Shown: piece after piece, positions 19,416 to 22,943 of the stretch | Numbering within the stretch: the first letter of the stretch is position 1 | Layout of the letters: each line of letters begins with the position of its first letter | DNA from: a virus | DNA: 22,943 nt | IMG/VR virus record: IMGVR_UViG_3300047444_000593 | Location: 1-22,943 of that record | Reading direction: 5' to 3' (one strand) | The notes under the pieces: generated by a model | Databases searched by the model: none | What the model was told of the DNA's origin: nothing | What the model saw: the letters and a program-made list of their open reading frames with translations, nothing else | Program-made: the position numbers and the translations under genes

Positions 19416-20234
19416 TCAGGCGGCTTCGGGGATACATCCGGGGTGGCGGTCTGATCGGCCAGGGCGGGGCAGCATGTGCCGGCCGCAGACGGTGCAGGAG
19501 ACCCAGCCGGACACGGCGGGCGTGGTGTCGGCTGATTGGTCGTTTGCGGGTCGCGCGCCCGCGTGGACCTGTGGCTGAGGTGGGAGATCAGCCGCGTCGT
19601 GGTGGTGGAGTGGGTCCCTACCGGAGGTAGGTGTACTGGTACCCCCCGCCACGGACGCTGTCCGGATGGCGTCCACGGACGCTGTCCGGGAGCGTCCATG
19701 GACGCTGTCCGGATCCTCGGATGGCGTCCACGGACGCTGTCCGGAACCCCCGCCACGGACGCTGTCCGGAACGCAGTCCACGGACGCTGTCCGGATGGCG
19801 TCCACGGACGCTGTCCCGGTGAGGAGTTCCTTCATCTCGCGAGCCTTCTTTGCCGCATGCGCCCGCTTCTGTCGGGTCTCCGTGAACAGCGGCATGTGTG
19901 CTGCCCAGTCCAGGCGCTGACCGGTCGGCATCAGCAACTGGTAGGTCTGCGGGGCATTCGGCCGACGGCGGCGAGCCAGGATTCCGACTGCCACCAGCAC
20001 GGCCACAGCACGGGTCACGGTCTCTGTGGTGCACCCACAGAGCACGGCGAGGGTCTCCCGAGACGGCCACGCGTTGCCGCCGTCGGCGTCCGCGTAGGTG
20101 GCAATCCAGTACCCGACCTGTGCCACCCGGGCCTGATCCCGGTTCGCGATGCGGAGCGTCTCGGCACGGAGTGCGTTGATCCACGCGTTCCGCACAGACT
20201 GCACGCGCTGCTCGGCGGGTCTGTCAGTGGCCAT
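19416..20234 (-). CDS. Winged-helix replication initiator candidate with iterons in its linker
   Basis: The product is 272 aa from ATG 20234 (GGAG 8 nt upstream) to TGA 19418-19416. Residues about 35-100 form a winged helix-turn-helix (WPSRETLAVLCGCTTETVTR, then AVLVAVGILARRRR), as in HTH_36-type replication proteins of phages and plasmids. A basic helix (about 118-138) follows. Residues about 140-200 are a repetitive linker (TASVDAIR, DSVRG, GQRPW) produced because seven DNA repeats are read in all three frames without stops. The C-terminus has CTVC (C247, C250), H253 and C267, a likely zinc site. As in lambda O, an origin inside the initiator gene is suggested. A plain transcription factor cannot be excluded. 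Confidence 0.75.
   Translation of the reverse strand: MATDRPAEQRVQSVRNAWINALRAETLRIANRDQARVAQVGYWIATYADADGGNAWPSRETLAVLCGCTTETVTRAVAVLVAVGILARRRRPNAPQTYQLLMPTGQRLDWAAHMPLFTETRQKRAHAAKKAREMKELLTGTASVDAIRTASVDCVPDSVRGGGSGQRPWTPSEDPDSVHGRSRTASVDAIRTASVAGGTSTPTSGRDPLHHHDAADLPPQPQVHAGARPANDQSADTTPAVSGWVSCTVCGRHMLPRPGRSDRHPGCIPEAA
19649..19819. repeat. Seven iteron-like repeats, candidate replication origin
   Basis: Copies of CCACGGACGCTGTCCGGA on the plus strand start at 19649, 19673, 19696, 19728, 19753, 19778 and 19802. Four are exact (19649, 19728, 19753, 19778). The copies at 19673 and 19696 each have one change, and the one at 19802 differs in its last three bases. All are in direct orientation. 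Spacings are 24, 23, 32, 25, 25 and 24 bp. Each contains a dyad CGGAC-GCT-GTCCG. They lie within the linker of the winged-helix gene. Regular spacing near 24 bp, direct orientation and position match iterons bound by an initiator. Confidence 0.85.
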
Positions 20235-20609: not shown

Positions 20610-21149
20610 TCACGCCGCCGCCTTGGTGGTGCCGGTGGTGGCGAGGCGCCGGTCCGCGGCCGCGTTCGCGGCCTTGCACGGGTCGCAGGCCTCCTGGCCG
20701 TCCCGGCGGTGTCGCTGGTAGCCGCTGCGGGTCCCGCACTCGGCCGGCTCACGCCGTGCGGCGGCCTGCGCGGCCCGCTCGCGCTCGGCGGCACTGCACG
20801 CCTTGCACGGGGTGGTCCCGGCACGCCGGTGCCGCTGGTAGCCGGCCGCGTCCCCACAGCCCTCGACCGGGACACCAGGTTCGGCGGGGCGACGGGTCCG
20901 GGCGTAGAGGTGTGCTCGGGCCACGGGGGCCAGCCCACCGCGAATGCCGTGCCTGCCGGCCTCTCCCCGGTTGCCCTCGATGGCCATGGCGTCGGTCAGG
21001 CACTCTGCCCGTACGGGGCAGCGGTGGCAGATCGACGTGGCGTATGCGGTCTGAGCGATCCCGGTGGCGTCGGTGTAGCTGATGGGGAACCAGAGTTCGG
21101 GGTCCTGGCCGGTACCGGGGCCGCAGGCGGCCTGGACGCTCCAGCTCAC
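20610..21149 (-). CDS. WhiB-like regulator with two repeated Cys modules (second copy)
   Basis: The product is 179 aa from GTG 21149, overlapping the ERF gene stop as GTGA, to TGA 20612-20610. The WhiB cluster ligands are C9, C41, C44 and C50 (ICHRCPVRAEC), and the turn motif is GIRGG (68-72). Two near-identical modules follow, 40 residues apart: C98, GYQRH107, C115-x2-C118 and C138, GYQRH147, C155-x2-C158. Each keeps 17 residues between its first two Cys. The protein at 13963-14475 has the same layout. The ribosome site is weak, so translation is probably coupled to the recombination genes. Expected to be an iron-sulfur transcription regulator; targets are unknown. Confidence 0.87.
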   Translation of the reverse strand: MSWSVQAACGPGTGQDPELWFPISYTDATGIAQTAYATSICHRCPVRAECLTDAMAIEGNRGEAGRHGIRGGLAPVARAHLYARTRRPAEPGVPVEGCGDAAGYQRHRRAGTTPCKACSAAERERAAQAAARREPAECGTRSGYQRHRRDGQEACDPCKAANAAADRRLATTGTTKAAA

Positions 21150-21913
21150 TGGGCACCACCGCCGATGCGCTCCTGCCCGACCCGGTACAGCAGCGCGCCC
21201 AACTGCTCCTCGGCGCCGTGCTCGTTCGTCACGATGGTGCCGTGGAGGTTCTCCTGCTTGATCTCGTAGTTGATCTGGGCCAGCCGCTGGCGGCCGGTGG
21301 TCGGCCGCAGGATCTCGTCGAGGTAGTCACGGGCCGACCGGGTGGGGGCCTCGCCCCGCTCGATGCGCGTCGAGTCGGGGTCCGGGTCGCCGGTCGGCAC
21401 CATGGCGGCGGTCAGCAGCAGCACGCGCAGCGCGACGCTCTGAGCCTTCGCGGTCGCCTTGTCGGAGTAGTCGAGGGCCTCGCCCGCGGACTGCCACATG
21501 CCGGGCATCGTGTCGCCCTTGGGGCCGATGATCTGCCACGTCACGGTGACCGTGCACTCCCGCGCCTTGCCCGAGGTGCGGTACTCGGTGTCGACCTTGA
21601 CCGGGGCGACGATGATGCCGCGGGCCCGAGCGGCCGGGCCGATCGCGTTGACGGTGCGGTCGACGCCGCGGAAGTCGTAGTTGCCGGCGCCGTTGGAGCG
21701 GAACTGTCCGCCCTTGCCACCCTTGGCGATGGCCCGGACGTCCCTCATCAGGCGGTTCCACGCGATGTGCACGGGGACCTGGTCGGGGTCGCCCGGGCCG
21801 GGCTCGAACTCGTCGTGGTCGGGCAGCTCGACGTGGGGGGTGGTGGTGTGTGCCTGCTCGGGCGCGGGCTCGGCGGTGCCAGCCAGCATGGCGGCGTTCT
21901 CAGCCAGACCCAT
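21146..21913 (-). CDS. ERF-family single-strand annealing protein
   Basis: The product is 255 aa from ATG 21913 to TGA 21148-21146. After a flexible acidic N-terminus (1-45), residues about 46-190 show the ERF core: a first helix (AWNRLMRDVRAIAKGGKGGQ), GNYDFRGVDRTVNAIGPAAR (about 77-96), the strands TVTVTWQIIGPKGD, and a helix with DYSDKATAKAQSVALRVLLL. ERF proteins anneal complementary single strands in phage homologous recombination. The C-terminal 60 residues are variable, as usual. It directly follows the exonuclease gene (2 nt gap), giving an exonuclease-annealase pair like lambda Exo/Bet in function. Confidence 0.88.
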   Translation of the reverse strand: MGLAENAAMLAGTAEPAPEQAHTTTPHVELPDHDEFEPGPGDPDQVPVHIAWNRLMRDVRAIAKGGKGGQFRSNGAGNYDFRGVDRTVNAIGPAARARGIIVAPVKVDTEYRTSGKARECTVTVTWQIIGPKGDTMPGMWQSAGEALDYSDKATAKAQSVALRVLLLTAAMVPTGDPDPDSTRIERGEAPTRSARDYLDEILRPTTGRQRLAQINYEIKQENLHGTIVTNEHGAEEQLGALLYRVGQERIGGGAQ

Positions 21914-21915
21914 GG

Positions 21916-22943
21916 TCAGGACTCCTTGCGGGGCTTGAGGCGGAACTTCGGGTCGATGTCGAGGCGCTCGCCGCGGGTCGTGCGCACGCAGTCCGCGTAC
22001 GCCTCCGGCCAGCGCTCGGCGAGGCGCTCCAGGTCGCAGGTGGACCGCTCGGTCGGCTCCAGCGAGTACGCCCGCTGGTCGCCGAGGACGGCGGTCTGCG
22101 CGGCGCCGAGGTGGCGGAGCATCTCGGCCTGCGCGGCAGCCTTGCGGCGGCGGGCGGCCTGCTCGGCGAGGCGGTTCTGCTCGTAGTCGATGAGCGCGTC
22201 GTGCGCGCCCTCCGCCCGGTCGAGGTGCACGACGCCGTCCCGCTCGGGGTGCTGGCGCCGGTACATCTCGACCAGCCGCTCCGGGTTGCCGCTGTGCGGC
22301 GGCCGGACTCGGGCGAGGACGTTGTCAGCCCAGAACCGGCCGACGGCGGTGATGATGTCGGCCGTCACCCGGGTGTAGGCGTCGGCCCGGATGACGCCCT
22401 GCCGGTAGTCGTTGCCGCCGATGAGCACGGCGTAGTGCATGTGCCGGTAGCCGGTGACGGCCATCTGCCACAGCACCTGCGCGAGGACGTCGTCCGGCGC
22501 CCCGGTGTGCCAGCGCTCGGCCTTGAATGCGCTGCGGGTCTTGACCTCCAGCGCGCACGCCTCACGTCCGGCCTCGGGCAGTGGGCACTCGGCGACGCGC
22601 CGGTCAAGGGTGGCACGCATCCACGACTCGTCCTGATGAGCGACCAGGCCAACCCGGCGGACCACCGATCGGTTGCGGCGGGCCCACTCCCGGGCGACGG
22701 GCTCCTCGAACACCGTGCCCCAGTAGGCGGGTTCGCCAGCGTCGTCGACCAGCTCGCCGAGCTTGTCGAGGTAGACCCGGAGAGGGGTCGAGTAGTCGCC
22801 GTCGACGACGCCGAGGATCCCAGCGACGTCGCTGGAGCCGATGCCGTCGCGGCGGGCGGACAGCCACAGATCGCGGGGGGCGTCGGCGGGGAGGAGGAGC
22901 CGGGCGGTCGGGGTGATGCGCCGCCCGGCGGCCGGGGCCGAAG
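21916..22943 (-). CDS. YqaJ-type viral recombinase / exonuclease (start beyond window)
   Basis: The frame is open from the window edge (341 visible residues) to TGA 21918-21916, so the start codon lies to the right. Visible motifs are GIGSSDVAGILG (residues 33-44), the 'YSTPLRVYLDKLGE' segment, GTVFEEPVA with conserved Glu (79/80), a catalytic Asp in RATLDRRV (D113), and the ExK motif LEVKT (E132, K134), followed by QVLWQMAVTG. These are the signature parts of YqaJ/lambda-Exo-like nucleases of the PD-(D/E)XK superfamily, which resect double strands for annealing. The C-terminal 100 residues are a helical Arg/Ala-rich extension not needed for the fold. It lies 2 nt before the ERF gene. Confidence 0.9.
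   Translation of the reverse strand, partial: SAPAAGRRITPTARLLLPADAPRDLWLSARRDGIGSSDVAGILGVVDGDYSTPLRVYLDKLGELVDDAGEPAYWGTVFEEPVAREWARRNRSVVRRVGLVAHQDESWMRATLDRRVAECPLPEAGREACALEVKTRSAFKAERWHTGAPDDVLAQVLWQMAVTGYRHMHYAVLIGGNDYRQGVIRADAYTRVTADIITAVGRFWADNVLARVRPPHSGNPERLVEMYRRQHPERDGVVHLDRAEGAHDALIDYEQNRLAEQAARRRKAAAQAEMLRHLGAAQTAVLGDQRAYSLEPTERSTCDLERLAERWPEAYADCVRTTRGERLDIDPKFRLKPRKES

Follow-up and report, generated by a model that had tools for sequence, protein, structure and literature searches.

A likely replication origin formed by intragenic iterons in an initiator-like gene of streptomycete phages

Background

Phage lambda and some plasmids offer known examples of a replication origin placed inside a gene. 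In lambdoid phages, the four to six iterons of ori-lambda lie within the gene of the initiator O (PMC7466680). Plasmid pSK41 carries its Rep boxes centrally within rep, the linker encoded by this origin DNA being dispensable, and the Rep of plasmid pPR9, a hybrid with an HTH_36 N-terminal domain, supports a mini-replicon (PMC5703833). The origin-binding protein gp38 of phage SPP1 has the direct repeats of oriL within its own gene 38 (PMC6316719). In repABC plasmids the RepC origin is located in the coding sequence, and this oriV is set apart from iteron plasmids (PMC3155836).

Here we analyse a stretch of 22,943 nucleotides of viral DNA (hereafter "the window"; IMG/VR record IMGVR_UViG_3300047444_000593), for which a preliminary description had proposed a possible origin of replication, consisting of an iteron array, inside an initiator-like gene. 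In the open-access papers searched the protein family and its fixed repeat geometry are apparently undescribed, and no description of such an origin for temperate Streptomyces phages was found.

Results

Seven iterons inside a minus-strand gene

The window exhibits seven direct repeats of 18 bp (positions 19649 to 19819), all in the same orientation, inside a minus-strand ORF (19416 to 20234, 272 amino acids; Table 1). In ascending coordinate, the distances between successive repeat starts are 24, 23, 32, 25, 25 and 24 bp. The recomputed coordinates and spacings agree with the preliminary description, which had placed the copies mostly 24-25 bp apart with a 32-bp gap between copies 3 and 4. 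The 11-mer GGACGCTGTCC is common to all seven repeats and has no further occurrence in the 22.9 kb of the window. The internal CGGAC/GTCCG dyad previously ascribed to each copy is complete (CGGAC-GCT-GTCCG) in five of the seven; its outermost pair is lost in copy 3 (TGGAC) and copy 7 (GTCCC), counted by ascending coordinate. The codon phases of the repeats (1, 1, 2, 0, 2, 1, 1) occupy the three frames with no stop, as had been claimed, so that the same repeat DNA yields three different peptides.

No 14-mer occurred more than twice within 250 bp in any of 200 first-order Markov sequences of matched composition, against six occurrences of one 14-mer observed. When the gene was recoded synonymously, with an identical protein and the phage's own codon usage, a trial yielded at most five GGACNNNGTCC sites (mostly zero or one; 20,000 trials) and at most two 16-mer near-matches (3,000 trials), against seven observed in each case. 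Neither chance nor the encoded peptide explains the repeats. An Rfam search returned no match, and a scan for DnaA-box-like sites gave none for the window.

Table 1. Features of the initiator-like gene and its surroundings (positions in the window)
Feature	Position	Strand	Basis or remark
Initiator gene (272 aa), coding for a winged-helix N-domain, a disordered linker and a small Zn-ribbon-like C-domain	19416..20234	-	HTH_36, phrog_391
Winged-helix region, residues 1-140, presumed iteron-binding domain	19815..20234	-	AlphaFold model, Foldseek
Iteron-carrying linker, about residues 141-242, predicted disordered	19509..19814	-	AlphaFold pLDDT
CxxC...HxxC Zn-ribbon-like C-terminus	19434..19496	-	sequence pattern; model pLDDT about 65-70
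Iteron 1, nearest the 5' end of the gene; lacks the outermost dyad pair	19802..19819	-	
Iteron 2	19778..19795	-	
Iteron 3	19753..19770	-	
Iteron 4	19728..19745	-	
Longer gap (32-bp start-to-start) separating two iteron blocks	19714..19727	.	
Iteron 5, outermost dyad pair lost	19696..19713	-	
Iteron 6	19673..19690	-	
Iteron 7, last in gene direction	19649..19666	-	consensus YCCGGACAGCGTCCRYGG on gene strand
Least stable 40 bp of gene and flanks, candidate unwinding element	19603..19642	.	nearest-neighbour profile, z = 2.75
Second dyad CCTACC-TCC-GGTAGG, within unstable stretch	19617..19631	.	present in 25/27 genes
GGCTGA...TCAGCC inverted repeat and CACCTCAGCCACAG box	19569..19593	.	alignment of 22 genes
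Erf-like single-strand annealing protein, upstream, same early cassette	21146..21913	-	PF04404 E 8e-8; phrog_155 E 3.5e-21
RecE-like exonuclease, cut by window end	21916..22941	-	phrog_434 E 3.2e-70

An initiator-like winged-helix protein

Residues 43-86 of the protein match the Pfam family HTH_36 (E-value = 5.5e-8, 32.9 bits against a cut-off of 25). The AlphaFold model exhibits a winged helix in residues 11-140 (pLDDT mostly 77-95), followed by a linker with pLDDT mostly below 50 in residues 149-242. The two results bear out the earlier statement that the array lies in the coding sequence of a winged-helix protein. The top PHROGs match is phrog_391, "replication initiation O-like" (E-value = 2.1e-9), with matches to other replication-initiation families as well, and phrog_391 was matched by all 18 aligned relatives. 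In a Foldseek search, where no match reached an E-value of 0.001, the best rows were MarR-type regulators, many of them listed alongside the N-terminal domains of pSK41-type Rep (4pql and 4pt7; probability 0.98-1.00, E-value = 0.008 to 0.03). The same two Rep entries rank first, with a marginal E-value of 0.02, in a profile search of PDB sequences. In VIA-align they obtain Z scores of 6.7 and 6.5, tied with other winged helices, many of them unrelated (all Z scores were below 8), and LexA is among the rows. The modelled fold thus agrees with an initiator and is not proof of one. The protein had been described as unrelated-looking when set beside lambda O; this has to be revised, given the O-like profile matches and the resemblance of its winged helix to the N-terminal domain of pSK41-type Rep. 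The C-terminal Zn-ribbon-like domain may contact the replication machinery of the host.

The array in relatives

Scanning DNA for the repeat pattern revealed many arrays, but such a scan selects for the repeat itself. Protein-only searches, with patterns placed in the winged-helix domain, yielded 33 relatives. Bacterial genomes of Streptomyces, Kitasatospora and Peterkaempfera contributed 13 loci and viral contigs the other 20, the same phage being represented more than once in some cases; where named, the hosts are all streptomycetes. The closest relative, from Kitasatospora (L055), is 79% identical. In every one of these relatives (33, some redundant) an array is present in the linker between the winged helix and the C-terminal domain, two relatives ending at a contig boundary after the array start. 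The arrangement that the preliminary description proposed to look for in related phages is thus found throughout this set, and its counter-example, an intact gene with the repeats missing, was sought and encountered in none of the 33.

A tblastn search with the window protein against phage and plasmid collections gave no match at an E-value of 1e-3, and cultured phages were reached only with more divergent relatives as queries. In Streptomyces phage Chymera, the hypothetical protein gp45 (L089:3335-4417) carries six repeats built around GGGGACAGTGCCCC; gp39 of Raleigh and Darolandstone has three or four repeats of GCGAATCGTCCGCGAATC, and gp53 of Chickadee four repeats of AAACGTGGACACTCAGATGACCA. 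In all of them the repeats separate an N-terminal domain from a distinct domain at the C-terminus. Matches to initiation families were obtained for the Raleigh-type proteins and for that of Chickadee; Chymera gp45 matched none of the phage families searched, and its C-terminus resembles that of L086, which has a GGAACCCGTTCC array. Gp39 of the Streptomyces phages Raleigh (L090:2377-3327) and Darolandstone (L088:3377-4327) is annotated as "mucin-2" despite its initiation-family matches and linker repeats, a label that is probably a misannotation. A helical C-terminal domain, common to the Raleigh-type phages, replaces the Zn-ribbon in two relatives, L083:5012-5368 and L087:8610-8996; its model in L083 (mean pLDDT of 55) was too poor for a structure search. 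The occurrence of Zn-ribbon and helical C-termini within the family, the latter also in Raleigh, points to modular exchange.

Conserved geometry with changing repeat sequences

In 22 genes compared, and counting from the last copy, the sites at 0, -24 and -47 hardly vary. Upstream of the -47 site comes a gap of 32-33 or 45 bp (32-34 or 45 bp in most relatives), beyond which lies a second block with three or four sites mostly 24-25 bp apart. The earlier suggestion that the longer gap marks a functional division of the array gains support from its recurrence in relatives at this same place, reckoned from the 3' end of the gene. The family exhibits three types of iterons, GGACAGCGTCC, GGAACCCGTTCC and GGAAGGCGTCC, and the spacing of 24, 25, (25), 32-34, 23 and 24 bp is kept among them. 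Iterons of the GGAACCCGTTCC type occur in five relatives with a spacing of 24, 25, 34, 23 and 24 bp (one of them with a degenerate fifth site), and those of the GGAAGGCGTCC type in L065 at 24, 25 and 32 bp, followed by the contig end. The geometry is thus conserved while the recognition sequence changes. The GGAC and GGAAC classes of iterons are separated by a change of R59 to N or Y in the HTH and by A94 in the wing. We regard these changes as candidates for specificity residues and not as proof, because they are carried by only five sequences from one lineage.

Selection on the DNA

Over 15 gene pairs, the difference at four-fold degenerate sites amounts to 3-28% for the array as compared with 27-60% for the winged-helix region, the array value being the lower one in all 15. 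Synonymous sites of the array are usually 2-9 times more conserved than those of the winged-helix region, whereas the peptides of the array are the less conserved in eight of the 15 pairs. The segment past the array exhibits mostly intermediate four-fold differences. This synonymous constraint, together with the recoding trials falling short of the observed counts, substantiates the earlier proposal that selection acts on DNA rather than on peptide. As nothing but a linker predicted to be disordered is encoded by the array, the DNA there would be free to evolve for binding, the resulting peptides being tolerated.

An unstable stretch and a second dyad

In 14 of 22 genes, including that of the window, the least stable 40 bp set in 18-24 bp past the first base of the last iteron; in the remaining eight, another nearby stretch is less stable. 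This unstable stretch is only about 40% AT in a phage of 73% GC, and is less pronounced than the AT-rich tract of lambda. The dyad within it reads CCTACC-TNC-GGTAGG across relatives and is absent from two divergent ones. Among its 20 distinct versions, five of seven pairs exhibit changes on both sides, no standard change is one-sided, and 96% of the dyad cells pair, a level that shuffles and slid controls did not reach. The clearest case of compensation is L069, where CCACCCC/GGGGTGG stands in place of CCCTACC/GGTAGGG and the peptide is altered. The second dyad may serve as a protein site, or it may be extruded as a hairpin. Further downstream, the CACCTCAGCCACAG box also codes for a conserved PQPQ peptide. 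The single-strand fold of the 3' region is only mildly, and not clearly, better than that of shuffles (z = -1.67). A slightly AT-richer element (GCAAACGACCAATCA on the gene strand, 19533-19547) is also located downstream of the iterons, and similar ones are seen in many relatives.

Genomic setting

Iteron sites number 7.25 per kb inside the gene and 0.09 outside. On 14 whole relative contigs the exact core occurs at a single place per contig, or is absent where the relative has another iteron type. Eight of the 14 carry a tyrosine integrase, so that these phages are temperate at least in part and the relatives probably integrate. Searches of the 14 relatives for a DnaB helicase and for an IstB/DnaC-type ATPase as loader found neither; the phages therefore probably use the host helicase. 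The GC skew at the array exhibits a step from about -0.05 to -0.13 without a change of sign; for this reason, and because the surrounding genes run one way, it is not counted as evidence. A WhiB-like protein gene (20610-21149) lies upstream of the initiator gene in the early cassette, in the same direction.

Discussion

The sequence itself establishes the array, the constraint on its DNA, the fixed geometry of the copies, the presence of the second dyad and an initiator-like protein family. The proposal of a possible origin in an initiator-like gene is strengthened by the O-like match, the presence of the array in every relative, the DNA-level constraint, the geometry and the single place per contig. 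Judged from these sequences, the locus is very probably a theta-type origin of a probably temperate streptomycete phage, with intragenic iterons bound by the product of the same gene. We infer iteron binding, a melting site, helicase recruitment and origin activity as follows. The winged-helix N-terminal domain would bind the seven iterons through their dyad core GGACAGCGTCC, and an ordered nucleoprotein complex would form on the two blocks, one with four copies and one with three, each of fixed spacing. Such a complex would strain and open the adjacent weak stretch holding the second dyad, after which the C-terminal domain would recruit the host replicative helicase and primase machinery. A bolder version, in which this is a GC-rich origin that employs a compensated dyad, not an AT-rich tract, for opening or priming and a C-terminal domain that recruits the host helicase with no phage loader, is one that we put forward tentatively and hold to be rather doubtful.

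Winged-helix proteins are often repressors, and the repeats might be binding sites of the same protein serving regulation (autoregulation or a transcription roadblock) rather than initiation. MarR-type regulators as the best Foldseek rows, LexA among the VIA-align rows and the WhiB-like gene upstream, which places regulators nearby, would fit such a role. However, the array is located in the middle of the gene with six to seven main sites in a fixed geometry, and the phage-protein matches are to initiation families, not repressor families. We consider a regulatory role improbable. A centromere-like partition array maintaining an extrachromosomal prophage would fit with some actinophage prophages being plasmids and with direct repeats beside repA that can be parS (PMC7157519). 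Against it, a tyrosine integrase in eight of the 14 relatives makes integration probable, and the array lies within an initiator-like gene; this explanation is very unlikely. Phages use short palindromes as operators or packaging signals, and the repeats might be dispersed sites of this sort (stoperators, for example) that cluster here by chance; we reject this as barely credible, the exact core being confined to a single in-gene cluster in whole relative contigs of 36-43 kb having the same iteron type. A peptide repeat or a slippage-born tandem repeat devoid of DNA function, as the low-complexity, predicted disordered linker might suggest, is rejected with near certainty, since the same DNA in three frames gives three peptides, synonymous sites are constrained, and the spacing outlasts changes of the repeat sequence.

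An intragenic origin thus being the preferred explanation, the locus gives temperate Streptomyces phages of this family a specific proposed replication origin that can be put to the test. Its fixed geometry combined with three recognition types in a single family would permit direct tests of initiator-iteron coevolution. With no gene for DnaB or an IstB-type loader found, it offers a simple system for the recruitment of an actinobacterial helicase by a phage initiator, and the array with its gene could serve as a small Streptomyces replicon module.

Comparison with known systems

By analogy, lambda O/ori, SPP1 gp38/oriL and pSK41 Rep are, on the best reading, working analogues of the proposed origin. 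The likeness to lambda O/ori lies in the mid-gene iterons with dyads, the N-terminal DNA-binding domain (presumed here), the early-gene position and the O-like profile. The present array differs in its spacing of about 24 bp, its two blocks and the longer gap, in that a compensated dyad and no true AT-rich tract was seen, and in that no IstB/DnaC-type loader was found in 14 relatives.

The SPP1 gp38/oriL system resembles it in that the repeats of the presumed origin are inside the initiator's own gene. In contrast, SPP1 possesses the loader gp39, the DnaB-type helicase gp40 and a second origin, whereas the searches for DnaB and for an IstB-type loader found neither in the present phages.

With pSK41-type Rep it shares the central repeats in the part of the gene that codes for a linker, and the fold of its N-terminal domain resembles 4pql and 4pt7. 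The dispensable ori-encoded linker of pSK41 matches the predicted disorder here, and HTH_36, known from pPR9, is also found in the N-terminal domain of the phage initiator. The RepA_N family (PF06970) of pSK41 was however not matched here at a Pfam E-value of 0.05, and the C-terminal domain, DnaD-like in pSK41, is here a Zn-ribbon pattern or a helical domain with an uncertain model (L083).

RepC likewise has an intragenic origin, and RepC profiles weakly match the winged helix, far below the curated cut-off. Unlike the oriV of repABC plasmids, the phage array has recognizable iterons.
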